Assembly: GCA_949840905.1 (NCBI GenBank)
Contig: CATKXW010000002.1
Location: 62,001 to 126,000 of the forward strand
Direction of reading: 5' to 3'
Length of the DNA: 64,000 nucleotides
Source: an uncultured Eggerthellaceae bacterium
Lineage (GTDB): Bacteria; Actinomycetota; Coriobacteriia; Coriobacteriales; Eggerthellaceae
Shown: positions 268 to 38,700 of the stretch, piece after piece
Layout: the number at the start of each line of letters is the position of its first letter
Position numbering within the stretch: position 1 is the first letter of the stretch
The notes under the pieces: generated by a model
Seen by the model: the letters and a program-made list of their open reading frames with translations, nothing else
Database searches by the model: none
Told to the model about the DNA's origin: nothing
Made by a program: the position numbers and the translations under genes

Positions 268-2226
268 ATGGCTACCAATGAACAAACGACGCCGGATCGC
301 GGACGCGAAGAGCGCAGCGATCGGCAAACGAAGCAGACCGATCAGTCTCAGAACGGATCGAAGCGATCCAAGAACCAAGACCAGAAGAAGAGCGGCCGCA
401 ACCGCCGCCGCTCCAACGATCGCAACGCGAAGAAGACGTCTACCTACAAGCATGTGGAGCTCGATCGCGAGCGTCCGCAGCTCTCCCGCGATGGCGGCGC
501 TGCCGCGGCCAATGACGCGCCGAAGCAGAAGAAGCGCAAGAGCCGCAAACCCGGCAAGCGACGCGACCCGAAGGCTGCTTTGGAGGTCATACCTTTAGGC
601 GGCCTGGATGCCATAGGCATGAACATGACCGTGTTCGAATGCGGTAACGATATGATCCTTGACGATGCGGGCATCATGTTCCCTGATGACGATCACCCCG
701 GCGTCGACCTCATCCTGCCCGATTATACTTACGTGCTCGAGAATGTCGACAAGCTGCGCGGCATCGTGGTCACCCACGGACATGAGGACCATGTGGGTTC
801 GCTGCCCTACCTTCTGAAGGACCTGGGCCGCACGGTGCCGATCTATGCCACTAAGCTGACGCTGGGCCTGATCGAGGGCAAGTTCAAAGAGCACAAGATC
901 AAAAACGCCAAGCTCGTCGAGATCAAGTCGGGCGACAAGGTGAAGCTGGGCTGCTTCGACGTGGAGTTCTTCTCGGTGAACCACTCCATCCCCGGTGCGG
1001 TGGGCGTGTTCATCCAAAGCCCGGCTGGAAACGTGCTGCACACCGGCGACTTCAAGCTCGATCAGACCCCGATCGACGGCGTCCATACCGATTTCGCGGC
1101 GTTGGCACGCTTTTCGGATATCGGCGTGGACCTCATGATGAGCGACTCCACCAATGCCATGAACCCGAACTTCACCAAGAGCGAAGCGGAGGTGGGCAAG
1201 GTGCTCGCCGACATCATCGCGCGGGCGAAGGGGCGCGTCATCATCGCGTCGTTCGCGAGCCATATCCACCGCATGCAGCAGATATGCGACGCCGCGGTGG
1301 CCAGCGGGCGCAAAGTGGTGGTGACGGGTCGTTCCATGATCCAGAACACCGACATCGCCCGCCGTCTGGGCTATCTGAACATCGCCGACTCCGACCTCAT
1401 CGACGCTTACGAGCTGAAGGGCATCCCCTCAGAGCAGGTGGTCATCATGTGCACGGGCAGCCAAGGCGAGCCCCTTTCGGCCTTGGCGCGCATCGCCAAC
1501 GGCGAGCACAAGACCATCGACATCGAAGAGGGCGATACGGTCATCATCTCCGCCACGCCGGTGCCTGGCAACGAGAAGGCGGTCACTCGCGTGGTGAACT
1601 CGCTGGCTAAGATCGGCGCCGACGTGTATGACAAGTCTCGTGCGCAAGTGCACGTATCGGGTCATGCGGGCTCTGAAGAGCTCAAGATCATGCTCACCAT
1701 GGTGAAGCCCAATGCCTTCATGCCGGTGCATGGCGAGGCGAGCCATCTGCGAGCCCATGCGAAGCTGGCCGAGGCTACAGGCGTGGAGGCTGAGAACATC
1801 TTCGTCATGGAGAACGGCGATTCCCTCATCGTGTCGGCCGATGGCTACGAGCTCGGAGAGGGCGTGCAAAGCGGCGTGGTCTATGTCGACGGTCTGTCAG
1901 TGGGAGACACCTCCCAAGACGTGCTGGACGAGCGCAACGCCCTCGGCAGCCAGGGATTCGCCTCCATCGCCATCGCGCTATCTTTCAGCAAGCATAAGAT
2001 GGTGGGTCGTCCACAGGTGGAGATGCACGGCATCACCGGCGGAGACGACAGCCATCTCATCCGCGAGGCCACAGGTGCGGTAGAAAATGCGGTCAAGCCC
2101 GTGATCGCGAAGGGCAACGCCTCCATGCGCGACGTGCGCAAGGCTGCCCGCGACACGCTGCTGTCCCTTTTGTGGGCGCGCACCAAACAACGGCCCATGG
2201 TCATCGTGAACCTGCTCGAGGTGTGA
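268..2226 (+). CDS. rnj: Ribonuclease J
   Basis: A 652-residue metallo-beta-lactamase/beta-CASP nuclease with 5'-3' exonuclease and endonuclease activity in mRNA decay and rRNA processing. The zinc motif HGHEDH lies near residue 170, and later beta-CASP histidines (HTGD, ASHIHR, PVHGE) are visible. The first ~110 residues are an Arg/Lys/Gln-rich, low-complexity extension absent from Bacillus RNase J1 (about 555 residues) but common in actinobacterial homologues; it probably binds RNA. The ATG at 268 is chosen because frame upstream of it overlaps dapA and has no family homology. The ftsK start follows 4 bp after the stop. RNase Y is also encoded in this window. Confidence 0.95.
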   Translation: MATNEQTTPDRGREERSDRQTKQTDQSQNGSKRSKNQDQKKSGRNRRRSNDRNAKKTSTYKHVELDRERPQLSRDGGAAAANDAPKQKKRKSRKPGKRRDPKAALEVIPLGGLDAIGMNMTVFECGNDMILDDAGIMFPDDDHPGVDLILPDYTYVLENVDKLRGIVVTHGHEDHVGSLPYLLKDLGRTVPIYATKLTLGLIEGKFKEHKIKNAKLVEIKSGDKVKLGCFDVEFFSVNHSIPGAVGVFIQSPAGNVLHTGDFKLDQTPIDGVHTDFAALARFSDIGVDLMMSDSTNAMNPNFTKSEAEVGKVLADIIARAKGRVIIASFASHIHRMQQICDAAVASGRKVVVTGRSMIQNTDIARRLGYLNIADSDLIDAYELKGIPSEQVVIMCTGSQGEPLSALARIANGEHKTIDIEEGDTVIISATPVPGNEKAVTRVVNSLAKIGADVYDKSRAQVHVSGHAGSEELKIMLTMVKPNAFMPVHGEASHLRAHAKLAEATGVEAENIFVMENGDSLIVSADGYELGEGVQSGVVYVDGLSVGDTSQDVLDERNALGSQGFASIAIALSFSKHKMVGRPQVEMHGITGGDDSHLIREATGAVENAVKPVIAKGNASMRDVRKAARDTLLSLLWARTKQRPMVIVNLLEV

Positions 2227-2230
2227 GCTC

Positions 2231-5038
<2,808 letters not shown>

Positions 5039-7160: not shown

Positions 7161-8483
7161 ATGCAGGATAACGGAGCGGCTTCGGGCCGTCTGATGCGGG
7201 GTGCCGTGAGCTTCGTCACGCTCGGTTGCGCCAAGAACGAGGTGGACACCCGTGATATGAAGGGCCGGCTGCGAAAGGCGGGCTTTCAGGTGGAAGCGGC
7301 ACCTGATTCGGCCGATGCCATCGTGGTCAACACCTGCTCGTTCATCCAAGCCGCCACCGAGGAGAGCATCGAGGCAGTGCTGGATGTGGCCGAGCTGGAC
7401 GGGGTGGCGAGCGGGGAGGTGCCGCTGATCGTGGCCGGCTGCATGCCGGCGCGCTACGGCGAGGAGCTGACCCATGAGCTGAGCGAGGTGCGCGCCTTCG
7501 TGCCGTGCTCTCGCGAGGACGACATCGTGGCCGTGGTGGAGGCAGCGCTCGGAGAGCGCGCGGGCCGTGGGGCGCCCGAAGAGGAACGGACTCCACAGGT
7601 TCCGTTCGCCTATGTGAAGATAGCCGACGGCTGCGATCGGTTCTGCTCGTACTGCACGATCCCCTTCATCCGCGGTCGCTATCGTAGCTTTCCCTATGAG
7701 GAGGTGCGCGACGAGGTGGCCGCTCGCGCCGCCGATGGAGCCCGCGAGGTCGTGCTGATCGCTCAAGACACGGGGCGCTACGGACGCGATCTGGCGGAAC
7801 CTTCCACTCTCGCGCAACTGCTCGAGCGCCTGGCGCAGGAGTTCCCGACGCTATGGTTCCGTGTCATGTACCTGCAGCCGGAGGGCATCACCGACGAGCT
7901 GCTCGATACCGTGGCCGCTCATGCGAACCTTTGCTCCTATTTCGACATCCCGCTGCAACACATAGATCCGCTCATCCTTCGCGCTATGAACCGCAGCGGA
8001 TCGCCCGAGGAGCTGATGGCGCTACTGAAGCGCATCGAGGAGCGCGTTGCCGACGTCACGTTGCGCACCACATTGCTGTGCGGCTTTCCGGGCGAGACCG
8101 AAGAGCAGTTCGAGGCGCTGTGCGACTTCGTGGAGGAGGCACCTTTCGACTACATCGGCGTGTTCGCCTACTCCCGCGAAGAGGGGACGGCCGCCTACGA
8201 CCTGCCCGAGCAGCTCGACGAGGAGGTGAAGGCCGAGCGCGCCCAGCGCTTGCGCGATCTGGCTGATGCGGTATGCTCCGCTCGCATCTCCCGTCGCATC
8301 GGTCGTTCCATGGCCGTGCTGGTGGAGGGACGGGAAGAGGACGGGCAGCTCTACGGGCGCGCCCAATGCCAGGCACCTGAAGTGGATGGCGTCACCTACG
8401 TGGATGAGGGCGAGCCGGGCGGGGTGGTGTCGGTGAGCATCATCGATACGCTGCTCTACGAGATGGAAGGGGAGCGCTCATGA
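7161..8483 (+). CDS. rimO: Ribosomal protein uS12 methylthiotransferase RimO
   Basis: A 440-residue radical-SAM methylthiotransferase that modifies an aspartate of ribosomal protein S12. It has the N-terminal UPF0004 domain with cysteines in the LGCAKNEVDTRDM, NTCSF and AGCMPARY motifs, then the radical-SAM cluster motif CDRFCSYC (CxxxCxxC) near residue 158, and a C-terminal TRAM-like segment. LGCAKNxVD and CxRxCSYCxIP favour RimO over MiaB; a separate MiaB is encoded at 14979. The last four bases (ATGA) overlap the start of the PgsA-CinA fusion gene, implying coupled translation. Confidence 0.95.
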   Translation: MQDNGAASGRLMRGAVSFVTLGCAKNEVDTRDMKGRLRKAGFQVEAAPDSADAIVVNTCSFIQAATEESIEAVLDVAELDGVASGEVPLIVAGCMPARYGEELTHELSEVRAFVPCSREDDIVAVVEAALGERAGRGAPEEERTPQVPFAYVKIADGCDRFCSYCTIPFIRGRYRSFPYEEVRDEVAARAADGAREVVLIAQDTGRYGRDLAEPSTLAQLLERLAQEFPTLWFRVMYLQPEGITDELLDTVAAHANLCSYFDIPLQHIDPLILRAMNRSGSPEELMALLKRIEERVADVTLRTTLLCGFPGETEEQFEALCDFVEEAPFDYIGVFAYSREEGTAAYDLPEQLDEEVKAERAQRLRDLADAVCSARISRRIGRSMAVLVEGREEDGQLYGRAQCQAPEVDGVTYVDEGEPGGVVSVSIIDTLLYEMEGERS

Positions 8484-9715
8484 GCGGCTTTGACGGCCGG
8501 CCTCAGAAGGCTGCCCAGACCGAGCGGTTGCTCACCCCCGCGAACGTGGTGACGTTCTGCCGCATCCTCCTGGTGCCGGTGTTCGTGGTGGCCTTTCTGA
8601 GCCCATGGCCCGAATGGTTCGGCATCGCCGATCTGACGGCCGAGTGGAAGTCCCTCATAGCGGCGGCCATCTTCATCATCATCTCCTGCACCGACTGGGT
8701 GGACGGCTATCTCGCGCGCTCCCGCGGGGAAGTGACCGATTTCGGCAAGTTCATGGATCCGCTGGCCGACAAGATACTGGTGGCCGCTGCGCTGTTAGCC
8801 CTAGTGGAGCAACAGGTGCTGCCTTCCTGGCCCGTGCTCATCATCTTGGCTCGGGAGTTCATCGTCTCAGGCGTGCGCATGGTGGCGGCCAGCAAAGGCG
8901 AGGTCATCGCCGCCAGCTGGTATGGCAAGGCCAAGACGGTGCTGCAGATCCTCGCCATCATCCTGTTCCTCGTCAAGGACTTCTTCTTCCCGCCCCAGGG
9001 AGACGATGCCATCCATAATCCTCTCTATCTGGTCTCTTGGGCGGTCATGCTGACGGCGCTCGTCCTTACCATCGCGTCGATGGTCGACTATCTGGTGAAG
9101 GCTCGCGGCGTCCTCGGCATCGGCAGAGGAGCGAGAACGGGATCTTCCGATGGGCTTCCCGAGACCACGGTGGAGCGATCCAGGAGGCTCTCTACCGCTC
9201 CGTTCGAGGAGCAGAGCTATGCTCTGGCGGCTTCGGTGGTGGAGCGGGCCAGCGAGCGTGCCTTGACGGTGGCCACGGCCGAGAGCTTGACCGGCGGCAT
9301 GATCGCCTCAGCGCTGACGGCCGTTCCGGGCAGCTCGGTCGCGGTGCGCGGTGGCGTGGTGAGCTATGCCACTGCGGTGAAGCATGAAGCGCTCGGAGTC
9401 GACGATGAGCTCCTTGCCCAGGCAGGGCCAGTGGACGAAGAGGTCGCCTTGGAGATGGCACGGGGAGCGCGTCGAGCGCTCTTGAGCGATGTGGCCGTGG
9501 CGGTGACCGGCATCGCCGGGCCGGGAGGTGCCGAGCCGGGAAAGCCGGTGGGCACCGTATGGATGGCCCTGAGCTCTCCTTGGGAAGAGCGCGCCGAGCT
9601 CTTCTGTTTCGAAGGGGACCGTGCCGAAGTGCGCGAGCAGACCGTCCGGGCGGCTCTGGAGGGCCTCTTCGAGGTATGCGACGGGGCGGCTTCCGCCATC
9701 TGCCCCTTCGACTGA
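8480..9715 (+). CDS. PgsA-CinA fusion: CDP-DAG-glycerol-3-P phosphatidyltransferase / NMN amidohydrolase domain
   Basis: One uninterrupted 411-codon frame encodes two proteins that are usually separate. Residues ~18-205 are a membrane CDP-alcohol phosphatidyltransferase with the full DG-x2-AR-x8-G-x3-D-x3-D motif (DGYLAR...GKFMDPLAD) and several hydrophobic helices, expected to make phosphatidylglycerophosphate. After a Ser/Arg/Gly-rich linker (~206-238), residues ~240-405 are a complete CinA C-terminal domain (AESLTGG, VVSYA, VTGIAGPGG, KPVGTVW), which in other bacteria deamidates nicotinamide mononucleotide. The CinA N-terminal domain is absent. In Bacillus pgsA and cinA are adjacent separate genes, so fusion by stop-codon loss is the simple inference. 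A second PgsA-like gene is at 34384. Confidence 0.92.
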   Translation: MSGFDGRPQKAAQTERLLTPANVVTFCRILLVPVFVVAFLSPWPEWFGIADLTAEWKSLIAAAIFIIISCTDWVDGYLARSRGEVTDFGKFMDPLADKILVAAALLALVEQQVLPSWPVLIILAREFIVSGVRMVAASKGEVIAASWYGKAKTVLQILAIILFLVKDFFFPPQGDDAIHNPLYLVSWAVMLTALVLTIASMVDYLVKARGVLGIGRGARTGSSDGLPETTVERSRRLSTAPFEEQSYALAASVVERASERALTVATAESLTGGMIASALTAVPGSSVAVRGGVVSYATAVKHEALGVDDELLAQAGPVDEEVALEMARGARRALLSDVAVAVTGIAGPGGAEPGKPVGTVWMALSSPWEERAELFCFEGDRAEVREQTVRAALEGLFEVCDGAASAICPFD

Positions 9716-9898
9716 GAGGGGCGGAGAAGGGGTCTTTCAAGGGGCTTACGACGCGGCCCTTCAGAGGGTCATCGAGAGGGACCGATAGCGACCCTCCTCG
9801 CGATGTTCCTGCCGACCTCGATGCCCTATGATCCCAAGAGGGGATGTTAGCACGACCGTACGAATGTGCGCAGCGAACGATTTTTCGCAAGATTTCCC

Positions 9899-9926
9899 TT
9901 GACTTGCATACAAGCGTTCGTAAAAT
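9899..9926 (+). promoter_or_regulatory. recA promoter with degenerate LexA box in the spacer
   Basis: TTGACT (9899-9904) and TAAAAT (9921-9926) are separated by 16 bp, a good sigma-70-type promoter 55 bp before the recA ATG. The spacer contains CATACAAGCGTTCG (9907-9920), which matches the Gram-positive LexA site CGAACNNNNGTTCG perfectly in the right half and at three of five positions in the left. SOS control of recA through this site is an inference. The remaining sequence between 9716 and 9898 shows nothing I can assign. Confidence 0.6.
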
Positions 9927-9981
9927 GGGAACCAGAGGATCGCTGAGGCGGCCGGATGGCCGTTTCCGAAAAGGAGCAGAG

Positions 9982-11037
9982 ATGAACCCTGATAAACAGA
10001 AGATGCTACAAGCTACCACCGACCAGATCGAGCAGAAGTTCGGGCGCGGTGCCATCATGAAGCTGGGAGAGGGAGGGGCTGATCTCAACATCGGCGTCAT
10101 CCCTACCGGTGCGCTGCCCCTCGATGCCGCTCTCGGCATCGGCGGCGTGCCGCGCGGCCGCATCATCGAGATATACGGCCCTGAATCCAGCGGCAAGACC
10201 ACGCTGTCGCTGCAGATCATCGCCGAGGCTCAGGCCATGGGCGGCGTGGTGGCCTTCATCGACGCCGAGCATGCCCTCGACCCGGTCTATGCGGCTCGGC
10301 TCGGCGTGGTCATCGACGAGGTGCTCATCTCCCAGCCTGACACCGGCGAACAAGCCCTTGAGATATGCGATATGCTCGTGCGCAGCGGGGCGGTGGATTG
10401 CGTGGTCATCGACTCGGTGGCCGCCTTGGTGCCCCGTGCCGAGATCGAAGGCGAGATAGGCGACACCACCGTGGGCCTGCAAGCGCGCCTGATGTCCCAG
10501 GCTCTGCGCAAGCTGGCCGGTTCCCTCTCGAAGTCGAACACCACCTGCATCTTCATCAATCAGCTGCGCGAGAAGATCGGCGTCATGTTCGGCAATCCGG
10601 AGACCACCACCGGCGGTCGCGCCCTCAAGTTCTTCTCCAGCGTGCGCATCGACATCCGTCGCATCGACTCCATCAAGGTCAACGGAGAGGTGGTGGGAAA
10701 CCGCGTACGCGCCAAGGTGGTCAAGAACAAGGTGGCGCCCCCGTTCCGTCAGGCAGAGTTCGACCTCATGTACGGTGAGGGCATCTCGCGAGAGGGCTGC
10801 ATCGTGGACATGGCTGTGGAAGCAGGCGTGGCCAAGAAGAGCGGTGCTTGGTACACCTACGGCGAAGAGCGCTTGGGCCAGGGTCGCGAAGCGGCGAAGG
10901 AGACGCTGCGCCAGAATCCCGATCTGCGTCAAGAGCTGGAGACGAAGGTGCGGGAAGCCTACGAGATCCCGATCTTGGAAGCGAACTTGGACGAAGCGGC
11001 TGCCACGCCGGCACCCAAAGACGCCAAAAAGCGATGA
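9982..11037 (+). CDS. recA: Recombinase RecA
   Basis: A 351-residue DNA-strand-exchange ATPase and SOS co-protease of normal length. It opens with the N-terminal helix, then Walker A ([10 protein letters not shown], near residue 67), Walker B ([11 protein letters not shown]), and the DNA-binding loops including [20 protein letters not shown]. The ATG at 9982 is chosen because AAGGAG lies five bases before it and the protein then aligns with RecA from its first residues; the open frame upstream contains the promoter. No intein or insertion interrupts it. Its stop overlaps the recX start (ATGA), so recA and recX form one operon. Confidence 0.98.
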
Positions 11038-11690: not shown

Positions 11691-11742
11691 TGCTCATGAA
11701 CGAGCTTGAAAGCTCAACGATCGAAGAAGGAGGGTGCAAACC

Positions 11743-13272
11743 ATGGAGTTCATCTGGCTCATCGTCGGCGCCGTGGTCGGCATAGCCCTCGGTTTCGTCA
11801 TCACGCGCGTCATCTCTCGCAATGCTCAGCGCACCGCTGAGCGTACGGCGAGCGACCTGATCGAGGACGCGAAGCGCACCGCAGACAACGTGCGCCGTGA
11901 GGCCGATATCGAGGCGAAGGACAAGGCGCTCAAATACAAGGAGAAGGTGGAGGCCGAGAATAAGGAGCGCCTGCGCGAGGTGCGCCAGGCGGAGAACCGC
12001 CTGTCCCAGCGTGAGGAATCCCTCGACAAGCGCGCTGATTCCCTCGACGCCCGCGAACATCAGCTCTCTTCCCAGCAGGGGCAAGTGGAGCGCCGCGAGA
12101 AGGACGTGGCTGCGGCCGAGAAGGAGGTGGAGAGCCGTCTGGAGCGCGTGGCTGGCATGACGCCGGAGGAGGCGAAGACCGAACTGCTCGACACCCTGCG
12201 CGATGAGGTGTCCCACGAGTCGGCTAACATCATCCGTGAAGCGGAGGCGCGCACGAAGGCCGAGGCCGATAAAAAGGCCCGCATGATCTTGAGCCTCGCC
12301 ATCCAGCGCGTGGCGGCCGACCACTCTTCGGAGAACACCGTCTCCACTATCCACATCCCCACCGATGAGCTCAAGGGCCGCATCATCGGTCGCGAGGGCC
12401 GCAATATCCGTTCCTTCGAGCAGTTGACAGGGACGAACCTCATCATCGACGACACCCCGGAAAGCGTGACCATATCCTGCTTCGACCCGGTGCGTCGCGA
12501 GATCGGTCGCGTCACCATGGAGAACCTCATCGCTGACGGCCGCATCCATCCGGCGCGCATCGAAGAGATGTACGACAAGGCATCGAACCTCGTGAACCAG
12601 CGCGTTCAAGAGGCAGGCGAGGAAGCAGCTTTCGATACCGGCATCCATGACCTGCATCCTGAGCTCATCCACACCTTGGGACGGCTGCGCTATCGCACCT
12701 CTTACGGTCAGAACGTGCTCAACCATTCCTTGGAAGTCGCCTATCTGGCAGGGGTCATGGCCTCTGAGCTTGGGCTTGATCCCTATCCGGCCAAGCGCGC
12801 CGGTCTTCTGCACGACCTCGGCAAGGCAGTCGACCACGAGATCGAGGGCTCCCATGCTGTCATCGGTGCCGACCTGGCCCGTCGCTTCGGCGAGAGTCCC
12901 GAGATCGTTCATGCCATAGAGGCTCATCATGCCGATGTCGAGGCGAACACCGTGCTCGACGTGCTGATCCAAGCCGCTGATGCTGTTTCCGCTGCTCGCC
13001 CCGGAGCGCGCAAGGAGACCCTCGACGCTTATATCAAGCGCCTTGAGAAGCTAGAAGAGATCGCCAACGGTCACAAGGGCGTCGAGCGCACCTTCGCTAT
13101 CCAGGCGGGTCGCGAAGTGCGCGTGATGGTGGAGCCGAACGAGATCGATGACGCTCAAGCCACCGTGCTGGCTCACGATATCGCCCATGAGATCGAGAGC
13201 AGCATGCAATATCCCGGTCAGGTGAAGGTGGTCGTGGTGCGCGAGAGCCGTGCCGTCGACTACGCGAAATAG
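11743..13272 (+). CDS. rny: Ribonuclease Y
   Basis: A 509-residue membrane-anchored endoribonuclease that initiates mRNA decay. It has an N-terminal transmembrane helix (residues ~3-23), a long charged coiled coil (~30-190), a KH domain with GREGRN (near residue 220), and an HD domain with the metal motif [10 protein letters not shown] (near residue 358) plus downstream conserved histidines. The ATG at 11743 is chosen because AAGGAGG lies nine bases upstream. The preceding RNA/terminator suggests regulated expression. The stop overlaps the GTG of the next gene by one base. Length and domain order are normal. Confidence 0.96.
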
Positions 13273-14405
13273 TGCCCGAGAACGGACATGATCTCGTCGC
13301 GTTCGTCGACGAGGTATGCGAGACCGCCCCGTTGAGGATCGAGACCGACCTCGGGGGCGGTTTCGTGCGCTTGCGCACGAGCGAAGCGGAGAAGCGCCAG
13401 GCCGCACAGGACATCCGCAGCAGCGAGGATATCGTGATAGAGCTCCTTCGCAACGCGCGCGATGCTCACGCCCGTCACATCTTCTTGGCGATGCAGCGCG
13501 ACGAGGGAGTCCGCACTCTCACGATGATCGACGATGGAGACGGCATCCCCGAGGCCATGTTCGAGCGCATCTTCGAGTCTCGCGTCACCTCCAAGCTCGA
13601 TACGGCCCATATGGACAAGTGGGGCATGCACGGGCGCGGCATGGCGCTCTATTCCATCGCCGCCAACGCTGAAGAAGCCTACGTGAAAACGTCGGAGGTG
13701 GGCTGTGGCACCGCATTGGTGGTGCGGACCGACCTGCAGGCGCTCGGCGAGCGAACGGACCAATCGACCTTCCCACACTTCGAACAGAAGGCCGATGGAG
13801 TGCTCGCCATGCGCGGCCCTCGAAACATCTTGCGCGTGTCCGCCGAGTTCGCTCTCGAATGCAAAGGGAGCTGTGCGGTATATGTAGGAACGTCCACCGA
13901 GATAGCTGCTACGCTCTACGGCTTCGGCATGGCCACCACCACGCCAGCCGCTCGCGCCTTCGGGCGCAGCAGCCATGAGGGAGGGGGATCCTCGCTGCTC
14001 CAACGCCTCGCTTTCGCCGTCGACGATGTCGATCTAGCCCGTCGCGCGAGCGAGCTGGGCCTCGACCTGTCGCCGCGCTCAGCACGACGCATCATGAACG
14101 GCGAGATAAGCACGGCGACCGATCTGTACGAGCGCCTCCAGACCGAGAGCATGGGAACAGCGGTCCCGGCAGCGAGCGCAAGCCGTCCGCGACAACGCAA
14201 GGAGCCTAAGCCCACCACCACGAGCGCTGATGTTCGCGTTCGCGGCATGCGCCTGAGCGAGGAAGAGCGCCGAGATCTGGCCGAGCGCATGCAGGAGGCC
14301 TTCGCGCCCATCGCGGCTGCCTACTTCCTCGAGGAGACCGTAGAGCCTGAGGTCGCGATACGGGACGGGCACCTGGTCATCTCGGTGCCACTGCTGCGGA
14401 CCTGA
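13272..14405 (+). CDS. GHKL-type ATP-binding protein of unknown function
   Basis: A 377-residue protein with a GHKL ATPase fold: ELLRNARDA (N-box), IDDGDGIPE (G1), and GMHGRGMALYSIA (G2), closest in style to MutL/Hsp90 N-domains. No histidine-kinase phosphoacceptor or HSP90 middle domain is seen. Residues ~300-330 are a Pro/Arg/Lys-rich linker, and ~330-377 form a small C-terminal domain. The GTG start shares one base with the rny stop, so translation is coupled to RNase Y, and spoVS follows. Bacillus has the phosphodiesterase gene ymdB in this position; the two proteins are unrelated. A function in RNA turnover, repair or development would be a guess. Confidence 0.75.
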   Translation: MPENGHDLVAFVDEVCETAPLRIETDLGGGFVRLRTSEAEKRQAAQDIRSSEDIVIELLRNARDAHARHIFLAMQRDEGVRTLTMIDDGDGIPEAMFERIFESRVTSKLDTAHMDKWGMHGRGMALYSIAANAEEAYVKTSEVGCGTALVVRTDLQALGERTDQSTFPHFEQKADGVLAMRGPRNILRVSAEFALECKGSCAVYVGTSTEIAATLYGFGMATTTPAARAFGRSSHEGGGSSLLQRLAFAVDDVDLARRASELGLDLSPRSARRIMNGEISTATDLYERLQTESMGTAVPAASASRPRQRKEPKPTTTSADVRVRGMRLSEEERRDLAERMQEAFAPIAAAYFLEETVEPEVAIRDGHLVISVPLLRT

Positions 14406-14418
14406 GCTCTCCGCAACC

Positions 14419-14447
14419 TTGATAAGCCCCTTCCTTTTCGATAGAAT
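14419..14447 (+). promoter_or_regulatory. spoVS promoter
   Basis: TTGATA (14419-14424) and TAGAAT (14442-14447) are spaced by exactly 17 bp, placing a start of transcription near 14454, ~66-93 bases before the spoVS start candidates. This suggests spoVS-miaB can be expressed separately from rny. Confidence 0.65.
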
Positions 14448-14519
14448 ATCACTGCTTTGCTCGGGTTTCATGGCATCCATGAACGCTCGGACCACCACAC
14501 GCACCACTCAGATGAAGCA

Positions 14520-14930
14520 ATGAACACGCGAATAGAGGATGCATCCGTGCCTACCACTCAAACCGATACCGTCATCGAAGAGCGCGCCGAGATCGGCTGT
14601 TTGAAGGTCTCTTCCAAATCGTCTCCCGCCTCTGTGGCCGGTGCCATCGCAGGCATGATCAAAGACGGCGCGGTCGTCGAGATCCAAGCTGTGGGCGCTG
14701 GGGCGGTGAACCAAGCGGTGAAGGCAATCGCCATCTCGCGCGGGTTCCTCTCTCCCATAGGCATCGAGATCGTCTGCGTCCCCGCTTTCGCCGACATCGT
14801 CATCAACGGCGAATATCGCACCGCCATCCGCTTTTCCGTCGAGCCGCGCAGCAAGGGTGCTGAGCGCGTTGCGGCTCCAGCGATGGAAGAGGCGTGCGAA
14901 GAGGTGTTCGCCGATATGGCGAGCGCCTAG
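14520..14930 (+). CDS. spoVS: Stage V sporulation protein S (SpoVS) family protein
   Basis: The core from about residue 28 matches SpoVS: LKVSSKSSPASVAGAIAG, an Alba-like segment (AVGAGAVNQAVKAIAISRG) and the closing IVINGEYRTAIRFSVEPR. SpoVS is a small Alba-fold protein needed for late sporulation in Bacillus, but it also occurs in non-spore-formers where its role is unknown. Two starts are possible: ATG at 14520 without a clear ribosome site, or GTG at 14547 with GAGGA seven bases upstream; the second is better supported by ribosome binding. The ~25-residue C-terminal tail beyond the core is not typical. Confidence 0.88.
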   Translation: MNTRIEDASVPTTQTDTVIEERAEIGCLKVSSKSSPASVAGAIAGMIKDGAVVEIQAVGAGAVNQAVKAIAISRGFLSPIGIEIVCVPAFADIVINGEYRTAIRFSVEPRSKGAERVAAPAMEEACEEVFADMASA

Positions 14931-19480: not shown

Positions 19481-20812
19481 TTGACCTGCGTATTTTCCAG
19501 CGTCACATCCGACGAGGTCGCGGTAAGAGGAGCCGCCACCTCGTCGGTGCCTCTGCGCGAGAAGGCCGTGCTCGTGGGCGTGGAGCGTCCTTCGATGGCC
19601 TATGGGCTCGAGAGCTCCCTCGCCGAGCTCGAACGCCTTGCTGATACCGCTGGAGCCGATACGGTGGCGGTGACCACCCAGAAGCTCTCGTCTATCAATC
19701 CGCGCACCTTCGTCGGTAGCGGCAAGGCAGAAGAGATCGCCGAACTGGCGCGCGCTTTCGAGGTCGATATGGTCATCTTCGACGATGAGCTGACCCCTTC
19801 CCAACAATCGAACCTCGAGCGTATCGTCGACCGGGACGTGAAGGTCATCGATCGTACCGCCCTCATCCTTGACATTTTCGCCCTGCACGCCACCAGCAAA
19901 GAAGGGCGTCTTCAGGTACGCCTCGCCCAGAACCAGTATCTCTATCCGCGCTTGCGCGGCATGTGGGCCCATCTGGCCTCCAATCGCATGGGCGGCGGTG
20001 TAGGATCGCGCTTCGGCGAGGGTGAGAGCCAGCTGGAGGTGGACCGGCGCATGGTGCGCAAGCGCATCACCAGCATCAAGCACGAGCTCGCTCATCTGCA
20101 GAAGGTCCGCGAGCTGCAACGAGAGCGCCGCTATGAGGACGGCATCTTCAAAGTGGCCCTCGCAGGCTACACCAATGCCGGGAAGTCATCGCTGATAAAC
20201 CGCTTGACGGGTTCGGATGTGCTCGCCTATGACAAGCTGTTCGCCACCCTCGATTCCACCACGCGCAGGCTGACATTGCCCTATGGGCGCGAGGTGACCA
20301 TCACCGATACGGTAGGCTTCATCCAGAAGCTGCCCACCACGCTGGTGGAGGCATTCCGTTCCACCCTCGACGAGATCACCGGCGCGGATCTGATCCTCCA
20401 CGTCATCGATGGGTCATCTGAGGGCTCGAGCGGCCAGATCGAGGCCGTTCACCAGGTACTCGACCAGATCGGTGCCCAGAAGATACCGCTCATCGCGGTG
20501 TTCAATAAGATCGACCTCCTCGATGATGGACAGCGCGCGGCCTTAGCTTCGCGATATCCGCAGGCTCAATTCGTCTCAGCCGAAAGCGGGGAGGGGATCG
20601 AAGAGCTCGTAGAGCGCATCGACCGAGCGGCCGGCAGCGTGGACACCCTCATGGACGTGATGGTCCCCTACGACCGGGGCGATCTGGTGTCGCTCGCCCA
20701 TGAGCGCTGCTCCATCGTGAGCGAGCGCCATGAAGAAGAGGGCACCGCGCTGATGCTACAGGTGCCCCCCGAATACGTCGTGCGGTTCTCGCCCTATCTC
20801 ACAAGCGCCTGA
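19481..20812 (+). CDS. hflX: GTPase HflX
   Basis: A 443-residue ribosome-associated GTPase that splits stalled ribosomes. The N-terminal HflX domain (residues ~25-200) includes GSGKAEEIAEL and a helical RRMVRKRI segment. The G domain follows with G1 GYTNAGKSSL, G3 DTVGFI and G4 NKID. The proposed start is TTG, two bases after the dapL stop with AAGGAG about eleven bases upstream; the first ~25 residues are weakly conserved, so a later start is possible. Its 3' end overlaps lexA by 14 bp on the other strand. Confidence 0.93.
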   Translation: MTCVFSSVTSDEVAVRGAATSSVPLREKAVLVGVERPSMAYGLESSLAELERLADTAGADTVAVTTQKLSSINPRTFVGSGKAEEIAELARAFEVDMVIFDDELTPSQQSNLERIVDRDVKVIDRTALILDIFALHATSKEGRLQVRLAQNQYLYPRLRGMWAHLASNRMGGGVGSRFGEGESQLEVDRRMVRKRITSIKHELAHLQKVRELQRERRYEDGIFKVALAGYTNAGKSSLINRLTGSDVLAYDKLFATLDSTTRRLTLPYGREVTITDTVGFIQKLPTTLVEAFRSTLDEITGADLILHVIDGSSEGSSGQIEAVHQVLDQIGAQKIPLIAVFNKIDLLDDGQRAALASRYPQAQFVSAESGEGIEELVERIDRAAGSVDTLMDVMVPYDRGDLVSLAHERCSIVSERHEEEGTALMLQVPPEYVVRFSPYLTSA

Positions 20813-21431
20813 AGACCGCGACCACCTTGCCAGCGATGGAGCAATCGTTCACGATGATGGGATCCATGAACGTGTTCTCGGGCTGAAGGCGAATATGGCC
20901 CCGCTCGCGATAGAAGCGCTTCACCGTGGCGCCGTCGTCGACGACGGCGACGACGATGTCGCCATTGTTCGCGATGCTCTGCTCTTTGACCACCACGTAG
21001 TCGCCATCATTGATGCCGATGTCGATCATGGAATCACCACGTACGGCCAACATGAAGGAGGGGGCATCGCCCACGATCTCCACCGGCAGCGACATATGGT
21101 CGGTGATGTTCTCCTCGGCCAGGATCGGCTCACCGGCAGCCACGTCTCCCACTAGCGGCACCGTGATGTTGGAGCTGAACGTGTCGATGGAGCCGGCGAA
21201 CACTGCGCCATCGAGGGGATAGGTGAGCGCTATGGAGCGGGATTTCAGCGGATCGCGCTTGATGAGCCCCTTCTCCTCCAGTGCTTTCAGGTGCACGTGC
21301 ACGGTGGAAGGGGAGGACAGCCCGAGGGTCGTGCATATCTCGCGCACCGTAGGGCCATAGCCCTTTTCGCGGATGTATTCCTCGATGCAATCGAGCACTG
21401 CTTGCTGGCGCCGGGTCACTTTCTCGGACAT
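20799..21431 (-). CDS. lexA: LexA repressor
   Basis: A 210-residue SOS repressor/protease. The N-terminal winged helix (residues ~1-70) contains PTVREICTTLGLSSPSTVHVHLKALEEKG split over the recognition helix. The linker carries the Ala-Gly cleavage site (DVAAGEP), and the C-terminal S24 peptidase domain has the Ser in GDSM and the Lys in ATVKRF. All residues for RecA-stimulated self-cleavage are present. The ATG is preceded by GGAAGGAAG. Two LexA boxes cover its promoter, so it is autoregulated. Confidence 0.97.
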   Translation of the reverse strand: MSEKVTRRQQAVLDCIEEYIREKGYGPTVREICTTLGLSSPSTVHVHLKALEEKGLIKRDPLKSRSIALTYPLDGAVFAGSIDTFSSNITVPLVGDVAAGEPILAEENITDHMSLPVEIVGDAPSFMLAVRGDSMIDIGINDGDYVVVKEQSIANNGDIVVAVVDDGATVKRFYRERGHIRLQPENTFMDPIIVNDCSIAGKVVAVFRRL

Positions 21432-21483
21432 GGTGCGCTTCCTTCCTCTGCCGCTTCGTCGCGCAAGGCGCGATCGGGGGCGT

Positions 21484-21529
21484 GAACCTATGTTCGTTCC
21501 ATTATATCCACGAACATAGGTTCTTGCAA
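21484..21529 (-). promoter_or_regulatory. lexA promoter with two mirror-image LexA operators
   Basis: Read on the minus strand, TTGCAA (21529-21524), 17 bp, and TATAAT (21506-21501) form a near-consensus promoter. Two 12-bp LexA cores flank the -10. GAACATAGGTTC at 21512-21523 (plus strand) lies in the spacer, and GAACCTATGTTC at 21484-21495 covers the predicted transcription start. Each site is the exact reverse complement of the other, 28 bp apart, so the whole region is one large palindrome. Confidence 0.88.
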
Positions 21530-30564: not shown

Positions 30565-31971
30565 TTAGATGAAACCAGCGACCTGCTTATTATATATGAG
30601 CGGCGTCTCGTTGATCACCGTAGGAGATGCTTCGGTGGCCACGCCCGAGAACACGGCCGTGAACCGTTCCCAAGCGATAGAGGCGATCTCGAACAGCTCC
30701 GGAGCCGCGAGCGCCTCGCAAGCTACCAGATCGGCCGTGGCGATGAGCTCGTTGGCCTGGAAGAACTCCGCACGCCCCATCTTCTGTCCCACCTCGATGG
30801 CACCGGTCACCCTGTCGAAGGCGAACCGCTGGCTGACGTTGCCGTTCAGCGTGAACACCTCCACCGTCTCTTGGGTCTCGGCGAAGGTCACCTTCACGGT
30901 CTTGTCCAGCCAGCTCGCCGCTGGCGCATAGGCCACGACAGGCACCTCTTGGGTCGCACCGGCGAAGGTCATCATGGCTTTCTCATCAGAATGGGCGAGC
31001 GGATAGGCCACATGATTGTCATAGACCCACTCCCACAACGTGCGCGTATCGAGGAAGCGCTGCAGCTCGGTAGGCGAATGCAGCACGATGGCGAACAGAT
31101 CGACCCCATCGCGGTGGCACACACCAGCGAAACAGGCCCCTGCCTGGTCGGTGAAGCCGGTCTTGATGCCGCATGCCCCGTCGAAGATGCCGATGAGCTC
31201 ATCGGTGCTGACCAGCGGAAGCTCCAAGGGTTGGCCGAACCGCTCTATTACCAAGGTGGCCTCGGGTTGGGCCACGATCTGACGGAACAGTGGGAAATGC
31301 TCCATAGCATAGCGCGACATGGTGGCCACGTCCGCCGCCGTGGAGTACATCTCGCCCTCATGACCATCGGAATCGAGGCCGTGAGGATTCGCGAACAGCG
31401 TGTTGGTCATGCCGAGCCGCGCTGCCATCTCGTTCATCTTCGCCACGAAGGCCGCTTCCGCGTCGTTGGCACCCGTCTCCGCCATGAAGCGCTCGCCCAA
31501 GGTCTCGGCGATGGCCACGGCCGCATCGTTGCCGGAAGGCACGAGCAGACCCTGCAAGGCCATCTCGAGGGTCATCACATCGCCCTCCCATAGACCTGCC
31601 GTCGACTCGCCGGTGGCCACAGCCTTGGCCGACACCGTGACCGGCTGGGAGAGCGTGCCGTTCTCCAATGCCACGATGGCCGTCATGATCTTGGTGATGG
31701 AGGCGATGTGGGTGCGCTCGTTCACGTTGCGCTGGAAGTAGACCGTGCCCTCGCTATCGACCACCATGACATGGTCGGCATCGACAGAAGGAGCCGCCGT
31801 CGCGGGGATGGAACGCTCCTCCACCGTTTCGGCCATGATGCGGTCGTTCTTGCGCACATCAGCTGCCGCCGGATCGACCCCCCAAAACGCCATGACCACC
31901 GCCAGCACCGCTGCGATCAGGATCGACGATGCCCGCGATGGGTGCCGGGCCGCTCCCTCATTCATCCTCAT
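30565..31971 (-). CDS. Serine-type D-alanyl-D-alanine carboxypeptidase (PBP5/DacF type)
   Basis: A 468-residue S11 peptidase that trims peptidoglycan pentapeptides outside the membrane. It has an N-terminal signal/anchor segment (residues ~16-38), and the three penicillin-binding motifs: SITK (SxxK, near residue 90), SGND (SxN, near 150), and KTGF (KTG, near 258). A C-terminal PBP5-type beta domain follows, ending with residues that may contact the membrane. Its start overlaps vanW-like by 14 bp, so it is in the same operon as the phosphatidyltransferase and FHA genes. Confidence 0.93.
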   Translation of the reverse strand: MRMNEGAARHPSRASSILIAAVLAVVMAFWGVDPAAADVRKNDRIMAETVEERSIPATAAPSVDADHVMVVDSEGTVYFQRNVNERTHIASITKIMTAIVALENGTLSQPVTVSAKAVATGESTAGLWEGDVMTLEMALQGLLVPSGNDAAVAIAETLGERFMAETGANDAEAAFVAKMNEMAARLGMTNTLFANPHGLDSDGHEGEMYSTAADVATMSRYAMEHFPLFRQIVAQPEATLVIERFGQPLELPLVSTDELIGIFDGACGIKTGFTDQAGACFAGVCHRDGVDLFAIVLHSPTELQRFLDTRTLWEWVYDNHVAYPLAHSDEKAMMTFAGATQEVPVVAYAPAASWLDKTVKVTFAETQETVEVFTLNGNVSQRFAFDRVTGAIEVGQKMGRAEFFQANELIATADLVACEALAAPELFEIASIAWERFTAVFSGVATEASPTVINETPLIYNKQVAGFI

Positions 31972-34387
31972 CGTCTTCCTTCACATGCTTCCGCGTCACC
32001 TTCTCGCGGCCCTCCTCCACCTCTATCTCGGTATCGGGACCTGCGATGACGATCTTGTCGATGGGGTTGTAGGTGGAATTGAAGGTGGCCTCGCGCAGGC
32101 GGTTGCCCTCCCGGTCATAGACCGTGCGCACCACCGTTATCTCACGACCGTCGGTGCCCACAGTGTCGGTCTTGTGCCACCCCGTCTCCTTGGTGTCATC
32201 CACCTCCACGATGACGCGGAACTTCTTGCCCTCTTGCCACTCACCAGTGGAGGTCTTCACCGTGTAACCCGGATCCACGCCGTAGAGCGCCACCGTGACC
32301 GAGGTGTCGGTATAGCTCGTGCGCACGATCACGTCAGAAGCGCTGTCGTTCTGCCAGACCAGATCGAGGTTAGGATAGTTCACCGCTGCATCGCGACCCG
32401 CCTCGTAGCTCGCCATATAGAGGGAATGGGGAGCGCGCTTCAGCACCGGGAATCCTGACTCGTATACGGCGTTGAACATGGTGGTGGCCACCTGGCAGAT
32501 GCCGCCACCGGCCTCGTCGATGTACTTTCCCTCTCGGATAGCGCCCGCAGCCAAAAACCCCGCTTCCTCGTTACAATCGCCGGTGGTGTCGTTGAACGAC
32601 CAGGTGCCCCCGTCAGCCGTACAGATCGAATCGTTCAGAAGGTCGGCCGCCAGATGGATGTTGTGGTTACGGTTCTTGGTCGCCGAAGTGGAGGTATAGT
32701 TCGTCGTATAGCTGGCGATGCGCCCGATCACGCCGTAGTCGCACGCCTCGTCGAAGGAGAGCGAACCGGAATAGCGGTAGGTGTCGATAGGGATAGGATC
32801 GAGGGTGGCGGGCGCTGCGCTCCCACTATCGGTGCGGAAGGGCCCGAGCAGCTGACCATCGAGCTGCGCGAGCGCCTCGTTCAGCAACGGCAGCAGTATC
32901 TCGCTCTGGGTGACCACCATCACCTCGTCTTTGAACTTCTGGAACGTGATGGCCAGATCGCCGCCGTTCGCGGTCTTGGTGTTGGCGGCCCCGCTCTGAT
33001 TCATCAAGGAGATGAGCGCTGGCTGGGCCACCTCCTCGTCGATAAGGGGCAACAGGCGATAGGTGCCGTTGACCTCCTTCACCTCGGTGCTGATCCACTC
33101 CCCCAGCTGCGCGCCGTCGACCTCCACTGTGCCGCCTTCGTGGGTGAAGCTGACGGGGATCTGCAGCATCCCGTTCACTGCGTCGCAAGTGACCTGGGCC
33201 TGCTCTCGTTCGATGCGCAACGGCGCGTACTCGGCACGGGCCACGAACGAGCCGGTCGCGCTCTCAGAGCGCAGCAGTATCTCGTCGAGCTTATCGCGCA
33301 GCGCTGCGCGATCGATCATCGCTCCGCTATGGCCTTCGGTCACCGTCGCTACGCCGTCCTCTATGGCGATGTCGAAGTCGACCCGCGGCTCGCCGATGGC
33401 GGTGTCGATGTCGTGAGCGAGGCTCTCCAGCTCCTCTTCGCCGTAGTCGCCGCGCACCTCGATGCTACGACCGCCGAACAGCAGCGCCGCTCGGGTGAAG
33501 AAGCCTCCGTCCTCCCGGCCCACCGCCATGGCCTGCCTGGCTAGTTCCGCCGCCGGCAGCTCGGCCCGCACGCTCGGGCCCGTTGCCACCCACAGCTGCT
33601 TGTTCTGCTGCGCTTCCTCGTAGGAGAGCTGCTCGGAGAGCTCCTCCCCTTCGATGATGCCGTCGGTGGAGACCAAGGAGTTCGCCGTCTCTTCGTTGGC
33701 GAACACGAACATCTGGTGATCATCGAGGCGCTCCTCGTAGGTGGCGCGGATGGCGTTCTCCGCCTCAGTGATCGTCTTGCCGGAGAGGTCCACGGTGCCC
33801 ACGGACACGCCCTGGTGCACCTTTCCCCACGAAAGCCCGGTATCCACCAGTCCCACCGCGCACACCAGCACCAGCACCACCGAGACGATGGCGAAGGTGC
33901 GACTGCGCTTGAAGGTCTGGACGAACGCATGGCCCACCGCGCGGAAGGGAGCTCCGAGCATCGAGAGGACCTTGTTGCCGCCCGAAGGCTTCGCAGCCGT
34001 GCGCCCACCGCTCTTCGCGCTCCCCCGTCGGCCATCGCCCGTCCGGGGAATCGCGCCGCTGCTATGGCTCGCACGAACGCGTCGGTCTTGGAGCATCCGC
34101 TCTTCCCGCATCCTGGTGCGCCCCTCGGCCACCGTCGAGCGCGAAGGACGACGCTCCTGCGGAGCTACCGACCCCGAAGAGGACGCAACGCGACCCCGAG
34201 CAGGAGCCGACGCAGAGCGGCTGCGAGAAGAGGGACGCTGGACTGTGGCACCGGAGCCATGGGCAGGACGACGAGCCGCAGAGCTCGATGAGGAACGAGG
34301 GGTCTGCGGCGCGCTCGTCCGTGCCGGGCGCCTCCCGCCCCCCCGGCCGCTATCACGATATGCCCTCGGATCCTGAGCGCGGTTCAT
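31958..34387 (-). CDS. VanW family protein with peptidoglycan-binding-like repeats
   Basis: An 809-residue membrane protein. The first ~165 residues are a very basic Arg/Ser/Ala/Pro cytoplasmic region, followed by one transmembrane helix (residues ~168-190). Next come two PG_binding_4-like domains (GVSVGTVDLSGKTITEAENAIR begins the first) and a VanW domain (FNDTTGDCNEEAGFLAAGAI, GGGICQVATTMFNAVYESG). A G5-like segment and an acidic Lys/Glu/Asp tail end it. VanW-type proteins are linked to the cell wall, but activity is unknown. The ATG at 34387 overlaps the upstream stop by four bases. Confidence 0.87.
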   Translation of the reverse strand: MNRAQDPRAYRDSGRGGGRRPARTSAPQTPRSSSSSAARRPAHGSGATVQRPSSRSRSASAPARGRVASSSGSVAPQERRPSRSTVAEGRTRMREERMLQDRRVRASHSSGAIPRTGDGRRGSAKSGGRTAAKPSGGNKVLSMLGAPFRAVGHAFVQTFKRSRTFAIVSVVLVLVCAVGLVDTGLSWGKVHQGVSVGTVDLSGKTITEAENAIRATYEERLDDHQMFVFANEETANSLVSTDGIIEGEELSEQLSYEEAQQNKQLWVATGPSVRAELPAAELARQAMAVGREDGGFFTRAALLFGGRSIEVRGDYGEEELESLAHDIDTAIGEPRVDFDIAIEDGVATVTEGHSGAMIDRAALRDKLDEILLRSESATGSFVARAEYAPLRIEREQAQVTCDAVNGMLQIPVSFTHEGGTVEVDGAQLGEWISTEVKEVNGTYRLLPLIDEEVAQPALISLMNQSGAANTKTANGGDLAITFQKFKDEVMVVTQSEILLPLLNEALAQLDGQLLGPFRTDSGSAAPATLDPIPIDTYRYSGSLSFDEACDYGVIGRIASYTTNYTSTSATKNRNHNIHLAADLLNDSICTADGGTWSFNDTTGDCNEEAGFLAAGAIREGKYIDEAGGGICQVATTMFNAVYESGFPVLKRAPHSLYMASYEAGRDAAVNYPNLDLVWQNDSASDVIVRTSYTDTSVTVALYGVDPGYTVKTSTGEWQEGKKFRVIVEVDDTKETGWHKTDTVGTDGREITVVRTVYDREGNRLREATFNSTYNPIDKIVIAGPDTEIEVEEGREKVTRKHVKEDDEDE

Positions 34388-35058
34388 GAACGCTCGCATC
34401 CGCCATCGCCGCCCGCAAGGCGCTCGCGCTCGGACAGGGCGCGAGCGGCAGCGAGGCAATAATGGACGGTGGTCGCCACGGCTAGCACCAGCCCTCCGTA
34501 GACGGACCAGATGCCCCACGAGACCGCTTGGTCTGTGAAGCCTGGCAGCCACGCAAGATCGACGAGGCCGAGCCCGGGCACGAGCGGCCAGTTCAACAAC
34601 AGACCAGCGAAGCCGACGAACAGCAGCGTCGTGGCCACCTTACCGGGATAGACCACCGGTATGCGGATGTCGTAGCGCTTGAGCAGCACGGCCCCGCCAC
34701 CCAACATGAGCAGGTCACGAGCCACCACCACCACGATGATCCACAAGGGCACACGGCCCACCAAGAACACCCCCAGCACTCCCGACACCATCAAGACGCG
34801 ATCTACCGCTGGGTCGAGCAGCTGGCCGAGCTTGGAGACGCTATGGGTGCGACGAGCCACCTGCCCATCGACGAAATCGGTGCTCGCCGCTACGGCGAAC
34901 ACGAGGGTAGCTGCGATGTCGAAGCCTTGGAAGAGCAGGACGAAGAACACCGGTACGAGGCACAGGCGCAGAAACGAGATCACATTAGGCAACGTGAGGA
35001 TCCGGTCGCTCACCGGTTCCTGTTCATGCTGCGCAGAAGGCTCATAGGCTCGATCCAT
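34384..35058 (-). CDS. CDP-alcohol phosphatidyltransferase family protein (second PgsA-like)
   Basis: A 224-residue membrane enzyme with the complete motif DG-x2-AR-x8-G-x3-D-x3-D (DGQVAR...GQLLDPAVDR) and about five hydrophobic helices. It is a paralogue of the PgsA half of the fusion at 8480. In actinobacteria such second copies often make cardiolipin or phosphatidylinositol-phosphate; substrate cannot be told here. The ATG at 35058 has GAGGT ~12 bases upstream and family homology begins ~20 residues later. It is first in the envelope operon with vanW-like, D,D-carboxypeptidase and FHA genes. Confidence 0.85.
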   Translation of the reverse strand: MDRAYEPSAQHEQEPVSDRILTLPNVISFLRLCLVPVFFVLLFQGFDIAATLVFAVAASTDFVDGQVARRTHSVSKLGQLLDPAVDRVLMVSGVLGVFLVGRVPLWIIVVVVARDLLMLGGGAVLLKRYDIRIPVVYPGKVATTLLFVGFAGLLLNWPLVPGLGLVDLAWLPGFTDQAVSWGIWSVYGGLVLAVATTVHYCLAAARALSERERLAGGDGGCERS

Positions 35059-35104
35059 GGAAAAGACTACCTCGAAGAAGCATCCGGACATATATTCGTT
35101 CGCT

Positions 35105-35113
35105 ATTCTAGCA
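35105..35113 (-). promoter_or_regulatory. Extended -10 promoter of the envelope operon
   Basis: On the minus strand TGCTAGAAT (35113-35105) is an extended -10, 47 bp before the phosphatidyltransferase start and directly in the tail of the ech terminator. No good -35 is visible. Confidence 0.5.
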
Positions 35114-35144
35114 AATAGGCCCTCCATGAGGGTATGGAAGGGCC
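35113..35144 (-). terminator. Intrinsic terminator of the ech operon
   Basis: On the minus strand GGCCCT-T-CCAT pairs with ATGGAGGGCC (stem 35144-35118, one bulged T) and is followed by TATTT. It ends the hydrogenase transcript ~75 bp after echF. Sequence between it and echF (35145-35217) shows no further feature. Confidence 0.75.
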
Positions 35145-35627: not shown

Positions 35628-36716
35628 TCATCGCTCCGTGCAGCTGACGCACGGGTCGATGGTGAGGATGATCATGTTCACATCGGCCAGATCGCACCCC
35701 TTCAGCGCCGCCACCATACCGGCGAGGTTCTGCGAGGTGGGCGTGCGCATGCGCATGCGCTCCAGATTCTTCGAACCGTTGCCGCGCGCATAGTAGTAGC
35801 ACTCGCCGCGCGGCTGCTCCAGCACATTGGACGCCTGGGACCCGTCCGCAGGAGACCCCTTCACGTCCACGGCGATGTCGCCTGTTGGGATCTTCGCGAC
35901 CAGCTCCTTGATGATGGCGATGGATTGCAGCACCTCGCTGCAGCGCACCTTGATGCGCGCGTAGCAGTCGCCTTGCGTGTCGAGGATGGGCTGGAAGTCG
36001 CTGAGGTCTCCATAGGCACCGCGGCCCAACATGCGGCAGTCATAGTTCACGGCGCTCGCGCGGGCGAAGGGACCCACCATGGAAAGGTCGAGAGCCTCTT
36101 CGTGGGAGATGACGCCCACGCCCACCGTGCGGTTCTTGATGGAAGCGTCGGTCAGCAGCGTGCTCACGATGGTGGCGTATTCCGCCTCCAATCCCTCCAG
36201 CACCGCCACGATCTCGCGCAGCATGGCCCCGTCTATGTCGCGCACGACACCGCCTACCTTCACCACCGACAGGATCACGCGCCCGCCCGTGGTCTTCTCG
36301 AACAGGTCGAGCACGCGCTCTCGCAAACGCCAGCAATGCATGAACAGGCTCTCGAAGCCGAACGCGTCAGCAGCCAGGCCCAGCCACAGCAAATGGGAAT
36401 GGATACGGGAGAGCTCGTGCCAGATGACGCGCAGATATTCGGCGCGCTTGGGCACCTCCACGCCCATCAGCTCCTCCACCGTCTCGGCGTAACCGAGGGA
36501 ATGGCCCATGGCGCAGATGCCGCAGATGCGCTCCGCGACGTAGATGAACTGGTTGTAATCGCGCTTCTCCACCAGCTTCTCCAAACCGCGATGGATGAAG
36601 CCTATCTGGGGCAAGCAGTCGATGACGGTCTCGTCCTGCACCACCAGGTCGAGATGGAGCGGCTCGGGCAGCACCGGATGCTGCGGGCCGAAGGGGATGA
36701 CGGTCGCCTTTCCCAT
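35628..36716 (-). CDS. echE: Ech-type [NiFe] hydrogenase large subunit (EchE)
   Basis: A 362-residue catalytic subunit of group 4 [NiFe] hydrogenase, homologous to NuoD. Both nickel-binding motifs are intact: ERICGICAMGHS (near residue 66) and the C-terminal DPCVSC (residues ~354-359). This marks it as a true hydrogenase and not a complex I subunit. The protein ends three residues after the last cysteine (TER), so there is no cleavable C-terminal extension, as reported for EchE and CooH. It starts 2 bp after echD. Maturation (hyp) genes are not in the window. Confidence 0.94.
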   Translation of the reverse strand: MGKATVIPFGPQHPVLPEPLHLDLVVQDETVIDCLPQIGFIHRGLEKLVEKRDYNQFIYVAERICGICAMGHSLGYAETVEELMGVEVPKRAEYLRVIWHELSRIHSHLLWLGLAADAFGFESLFMHCWRLRERVLDLFEKTTGGRVILSVVKVGGVVRDIDGAMLREIVAVLEGLEAEYATIVSTLLTDASIKNRTVGVGVISHEEALDLSMVGPFARASAVNYDCRMLGRGAYGDLSDFQPILDTQGDCYARIKVRCSEVLQSIAIIKELVAKIPTGDIAVDVKGSPADGSQASNVLEQPRGECYYYARGNGSKNLERMRMRTPTSQNLAGMVAALKGCDLADVNMIILTIDPCVSCTER

Positions 36717-36718
36717 GG

Positions 36719-37312: not shown

Positions 37313-37324
37313 GGTCTGTGCGCC

Positions 37325-37780: not shown

Positions 37781-37801
37781 CTCTTCGAACCCTCCTATCG
37801 C

Positions 37802-38674: not shown

Positions 38675-38700
38675 GGTCGTCTCAACCTCTATCCCTCTGA

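Follow-up and report, generated by a model that had tools for sequence, protein, structure and literature searches.

Organisation of the locus

The window, by which we mean the whole stretch of 64,000 nucleotides that was analysed, contains a gene in which a phosphatidylglycerophosphate (PGP) synthase domain, PgsA, is followed in the same frame by a CinA domain, PncC. This gene lies between rimO and recA, and the features of the locus are the following:

7161-8483, forward strand: rimO, the upstream neighbour, scoring over the TIGR01125 cut-off; its last 4 bases (ATGA) are shared with the fusion gene
8480-9715, forward strand: pgsA::pncC fusion gene, 411 amino acids in one open frame
8480-9115, forward strand: PgsA module (residues 1-212) with six membrane helices, assigned by Pfam, NCBIfam, the AlphaFold2 model and the match to 7drj/7drk
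8693-8770, forward strand: CDP-alcohol phosphotransferase motif D-x2-D-G-x2-A-R-x8-G-x3-D-x3-D (residues 72-97)
9116-9202, forward strand: linker (residues ~213-241), modelled at low confidence, unconserved and devoid of a strong ribosome-binding site
9203-9697, forward strand: PncC module (CinA C-terminal, NMN deamidase; residues 242-406), assigned by Pfam CinA, TIGR00199 and the fold match to 2a9s
9284-9286, forward strand: Ser269, the counterpart of catalytic Ser31 in A. tumefaciens CinA (2a9s alignment, mutagenesis in PMC5384747)
9380-9382, forward strand: Lys301, aligned with catalytic Lys63 of the same enzyme (same alignment and mutagenesis)
9982-11037, forward strand: recA, the downstream neighbour, with MNPDKQ as its probable start rather than 9844

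The fusion frame begins with ATG, ends with TGA and has no stop inside, and the calculated mass of its product is 43.7 kDa. In the Pfam scan, CDP-OH_P_transf covered residues 20-198 far above its cut-off (E 1.6e-44) and CinA (PF02464) covered residues 248-399 (E 8.5e-52, 175.3 bits vs a cut-off of 23.5). Additionally, the NCBIfam model for pgsA, TIGR00560, was matched at 164.9 bits (curated equivalog cut-off 109.1) and PncC_domain, TIGR00199, at 136.1 bits (cut-off 68.9). The single 411-codon frame with two domains, claimed in the preliminary description, was thus confirmed. The models for full-length CinA were not reached (PRK00549, 151.7 vs 379 bits; TIGR00200, 97.5 vs 243 bits) because the COG1058 half is missing from the fusion protein, the Pfam scan of which contained no PF00994 (COG1058/MoCF) domain. 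Judged by these profiles, PgsA is joined to only one half of CinA, namely PncC (NMN deamidase).

Regarding recA, the open reading frame is too long at its 5' end (9844-9990), and TIGR02012 matches from residue 50 of this longer frame. Between the fusion gene and recA, consensus matches revealed a LexA-box-like site (9874-9887) and a promoter-like site (9899-9926), so that recA probably has its own promoter, apart from that of the fusion gene. In the case of lexA (20802-21431, reverse strand), two near-perfect LexA-type boxes, TGAACCTATGTTCG and CGAACATAGGTTCT, lie upstream at 21483-21524, in keeping with autoregulation.

Several other features of the window can be mentioned. RNase Y, a HATPase-domain protein and a SpoVS protein are grouped together at 11734-14930; to our knowledge, sporulation is not known in the lineage to which the window belongs. 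A second CDP-alcohol enzyme (34384-35127, reverse strand) is closest to the cardiolipin synthase ClsA, below the ClsA cut-off, and overlaps the 5' end of a VanW-domain frame (31958-34552) whose start is probably further in. Finally, a cluster at 35631-40626 (reverse strand) codes for subunits like those of the complex I 49-kDa/NiFe hydrogenase, 30-kDa and proton antiporter families, and may represent a membrane-bound hydrogenase or a respiratory complex.

Active sites and selection

Both sets of active-site residues are conserved. The CDP-alcohol motif of the window protein reads DWVDGYLARSRGEVTDFGKFMDPLAD, and the fixed residues of this motif are invariant in an alignment of 88 distinct fused proteins. 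The same is true of E268, S269, T271, S286, Y296, K301, G344 and R381 in PncC (88 of 88), while T343, which is present in the window protein, is conserved to 94%. The alignment with 2a9s and the residues described in PMC5384747 identify S269/K301 as the catalytic dyad and S286, Y296 and R381 as phosphate-binding residues; mutagenesis of A. tumefaciens CinA indicated that the equivalent of T343 matters for efficiency (PMC5384747). Both motif sets are therefore intact, as had been noted earlier. The position of the oxyanion residue Cys32 is occupied by Leu in the window protein and in most fused members, so that the rate of NMN deamidation may differ; the C32A variant of the A. tumefaciens enzyme retained ~72% of its efficiency (PMC5384747), and some CinA homologues are inactive (PMC3855486).

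The dN/dS values of the four closest pairs were 0-0.09 for PgsA, 0.11-0.19 for PncC and 0.22-0.55 for the linker; only these pairs are quoted, as the 18 pooled pairs are blurred by saturated ones and leave the linker mean undefined. By this measure both enzymes are under purifying selection and the linker is under weaker constraint. At the level of sequence, the fusion protein would possess both PGP synthase and NMN deamidase activity.

Structure and comparison with known proteins

The AlphaFold2 model (mean pLDDT 87.8, pTM 0.67) displays two confident domains, and pLDDT falls under 50 at residues 219-229. The low model confidence agrees with the flexibility previously proposed for the linker, although its bounds have to be moved from 206-238 to ~213-241. 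The charge pattern of the PgsA part, with six transmembrane helices, keeps the positive-inside rule if both ends are cytoplasmic. In this topology PncC would be tethered to the membrane on the cytoplasmic face, where NMN would be met.

Like S. aureus PgsA (TIGR00560; 7drj/7drk), the fusion protein has a complete domain that passes the cut-off with its motif intact, with a TM-score of 0.81-0.82 by target length; it differs by bearing an extra cytoplasmic enzyme domain at the C-terminus. A weak structural match was obtained with the archaeal IPCT-DIPPS (4mnd), in which a CDP-alcohol phosphotransferase is likewise joined to a soluble enzyme domain. The two enzymes of IPCT-DIPPS carry out consecutive steps of one pathway and its soluble domain is N-terminal, whereas PgsA and PncC come from unrelated pathways and the soluble domain is C-terminal.

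With the single-domain PncC of A. tumefaciens (CinA, 2a9s; TIGR00199), the C-terminal half shares a complete domain, the Ser/Lys dyad and the phosphate-binding residues (TM-score 0.90-0.93 by target length). In contrast to it, the PncC of the fusion is anchored to a six-helix membrane enzyme and carries Leu at the Cys32 position. The full-length CinA of T. thermophilus (COG1058-PncC, 4ct8) likewise joins two enzymes in one chain with PncC at the C-terminal end, but there PncC is paired with an ADP-ribose pyrophosphatase belonging to the same NAD cycle, whereas in the fusion protein it is paired with a lipid enzyme and lacks COG1058. In many genomes full-length cinA adjoins pgsA and recA (for recA, see also PMC3680494), as the pncC part of the fusion gene does. 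Since the CinA proteins of A. tumefaciens and T. thermophilus are dimers (PMC4246079), a 2:2 assembly of the fusion protein is conceivable by analogy.

According to PMC3855486, fusions of CinA with other domains occur now and then; that paper sets them aside. In the literature searched we found no paper describing a PgsA::PncC fusion, although domain-architecture databases may list it. It is a new domain architecture built from known families, undescribed in that literature.

Distribution of fused and separate genes

The preliminary description had treated the fusion as a feature of one genome. Instead, it is family-wide, in a family that inhabits the gut, and has been toggled at least six times. 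In a search of 398 genomes of Coriobacteriia, in which families were labelled f1, f2 and so forth (f1 being that of the window), single matches across both domains were found in most of f1 and in several other families. In a second genome collection the fusion was also found in Adlercreutzia muris and Slackia equolifaciens (Eggerthellaceae) and in Senegalimassilia anaerobia. Because the aligned domains of the A. muris locus are identical to those of one f1 genome, f1 most probably corresponds to Eggerthellaceae.

Frames were walked across the fetched loci, and 129 genomes were resolved, with uneven sampling of families, many represented by one genome. In f1, 60 of 61 resolved genomes were fused and one was split. 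Family f6 had ten fused and one split, and every resolved genome of f5, f7 and f10 (five in total) was fused. Conversely, f2 had 2 fused vs 11 split, and f3, f4 and f8 were split throughout. In most outgroup families a separate, full-length cinA (COG1058-PncC) comes after pgsA and can be recognised by a gap of ~740-810 nt before the PncC domain, while in other families of the order pgsA adjoins a stand-alone pncC. The earlier statement that pgsA and cinA are separate adjacent genes in Firmicutes is borne out by the comparative loci. Among the candidates fetched in a phylum-wide search, which is a sample, no fusion was found outside the class.

Single loci deserve comment. L165 (genome G053, outgroup family f18; 1447-3447, reverse strand) codes for a three-domain PgsA-COG1058-PncC chain of 667 codons, confirmed by Pfam. 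L120 (G322; 1315-3153, reverse strand) is a fused homologue with a low-complexity linker of ~200 residues and a more divergent PncC domain. L191 is fused, whereas in G048, where equal open-frame values had suggested a fusion, the genes are split by a stop. Neither L127, masked with N over the CinA region, nor L125, which reaches the contig end, was counted as a loss of CinA. Some fused homologues seemed to contain a stop (‘1 TAG’ etc.), but in those that were checked the frame walk gave one open frame through both domains.

Evolution of the join

A tree of both domains (IQ-TREE, 97 rows, bootstrap not wholly converged) requires eight changes between the fused and split states, at least six of them forced by well supported branches; a larger FastTree tree gave a similar picture. 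As the root was not inferred, single steps cannot be assigned with certainty as gain or loss. In the case of G385 and G376, both draft genomes, split genes are nested within fused clades, and pncC has its own ATG at or just past the PgsA stop, so that they look like real fissions. The three-domain protein of G053 is a convergent fusion.

In the proposed origin, pgsA and cinA would be old neighbours. From pgsA|cinA, the loss of COG1058 would have led to pgsA|pncC, and the loss of the stop between them to PgsA::PncC. This order, deduced from the distribution, is likely.

Metabolic setting and interpretation

The genome has one CinA domain and also codes for LigA, a source of NMN, NadD and NadE. 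For the other CDP-alcohol enzyme of the genome, ClsA gave the highest score, yet no cut-off was reached, that of pgsA included. Two PF00994 matches lie on another contig, one of them in a frame with a MoeA-like N-terminal region. With the sole CinA domain and the sole pgsA over the cut-off, the fusion probably supplies both the PGP synthase and the NMN deamidase of the cell.

Altogether, we consider it probable that the gene produces one chain with two independently catalytic modules, which originated when the stop between two adjacent genes of an operon was lost. The PgsA module, an essential lipid enzyme, would act in the membrane, converting CDP-diacylglycerol and glycerol-3-phosphate to phosphatidylglycerophosphate. 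The PncC module, on a floppy cytoplasmic tether, would deamidate NMN to NaMN, from which NAD would be rebuilt by NadD and NadE; one source of the NMN would be the NAD-dependent DNA ligase. As a result of the join, PncC would be translated together with PgsA in equal numbers and kept at the membrane, with no transfer of metabolites between the sites.

The reactions of PgsA and PncC have no substrate or product in common, and channelling is therefore not expected. Substrate channelling or regulatory coupling between the halves is accordingly unsupported, and the modules would presumably be functionally uncoupled. The family-wide retention may nevertheless reflect selection for coupling, beyond mere tolerance. 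What is selected could be the membrane tether, an obligatory joint assembly of two dimers, or a control in which pyridine nucleotides act on phosphatidylglycerol synthesis or are acted on by it. The near-constant fusion in f1, the convergent origins (the three-domain chain with COG1058 and another in a genus of f2) and the active sites, which are always both retained, speak for this explanation. Against it, the two pathways share no metabolite, two fissions are nested in fused clades, and losing a stop is enough to fuse neighbours that share a frame, even if nothing is gained by it. The linker, moreover, is unconserved in sequence and variable in length among the 88 fused proteins: in one uncurated alignment the distance from the last membrane helix to the PncC active-site motif ranged from 18 (L114) to 214 residues (L120), which argues against a fixed geometry between the domains. 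As a whole, we regard selection for coupling as unlikely. By the same token, of the earlier proposal that the fusion tethers NAD-salvage chemistry to the membrane, the deamidase at the membrane holds with the predicted topology, but its importance for NAD salvage is unsupported, given the lack of a shared metabolite, the unconserved linker and two lineages in which the genes are again separate. The membrane tether is thus a likely consequence of the join; as its purpose, it is unproven.

The fusion might also exist in the DNA only, two proteins resulting if translation started anew within the frame or if the linker were cleaved. The long, disordered and variable linker would be open to proteases, and in-frame GTG codons occur at residues 231 and 253-254. 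However, the best in-frame starts near PncC in fused genes had a mean ribosome-binding energy of only -4.2 kcal/mol, compared with -6.2 kcal/mol for the starts of split pncC genes and -6.9 kcal/mol for the pgsA starts of the fused genes, and 9 of the 88 fused genes had no in-frame start near PncC. In the window fusion, the candidate sites reached only -3.0 to -4.8 kcal/mol. Stretches inside the domain gave -6.6 kcal/mol, stronger than the fused linkers, but with more candidate codons. Conserved internal initiation, which the preliminary description had named as a refuting case, hence appears unlikely from these signals. Since ribosome-binding signals like those before split pncC genes are missing from the fused linkers, the fusion gene probably yields a single chain, and we hold two separate proteins to be quite improbable.

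A further idea is that the fusion is selected for keeping CinA at the membrane to serve a purpose outside metabolism, either holding RecA or NMN-releasing repair there or tying phosphatidylglycerol synthesis to NAD turnover. It draws on recA being the next gene and on a CinA-RecA complex that has reportedly been proposed for pneumococcus. A 2024 study, in which pneumococcal CinA had no role in transformation or MMS tolerance (PMC11708029), counts against it, and we judge this role to be very improbable. Finally, removal of a stop or a frame shift by sequencing or assembly error, conceivable in a 44-contig assembly, has a negligible probability, since the same in-frame join recurs at ~90 other loci in independently assembled genomes, some of them single-contig and some from named isolates such as S. 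equolifaciens, S. anaerobia and A. muris, which excludes chance or misassembly.

If both halves of the single chain are active, the only PGP synthase of the genome over the model cut-off carries a housekeeping enzyme of NAD recycling, and annotation, knock-outs or inhibitors aimed at either activity would strike both. If coupling were true, it would be an unexpected tie of phospholipid synthesis to NAD salvage in bacteria. The class displays four states, namely pgsA|cinA, pgsA|pncC, PgsA::PncC and PgsA::COG1058::PncC, and as such offers a natural repeated experiment in which operon neighbours turn into one protein.
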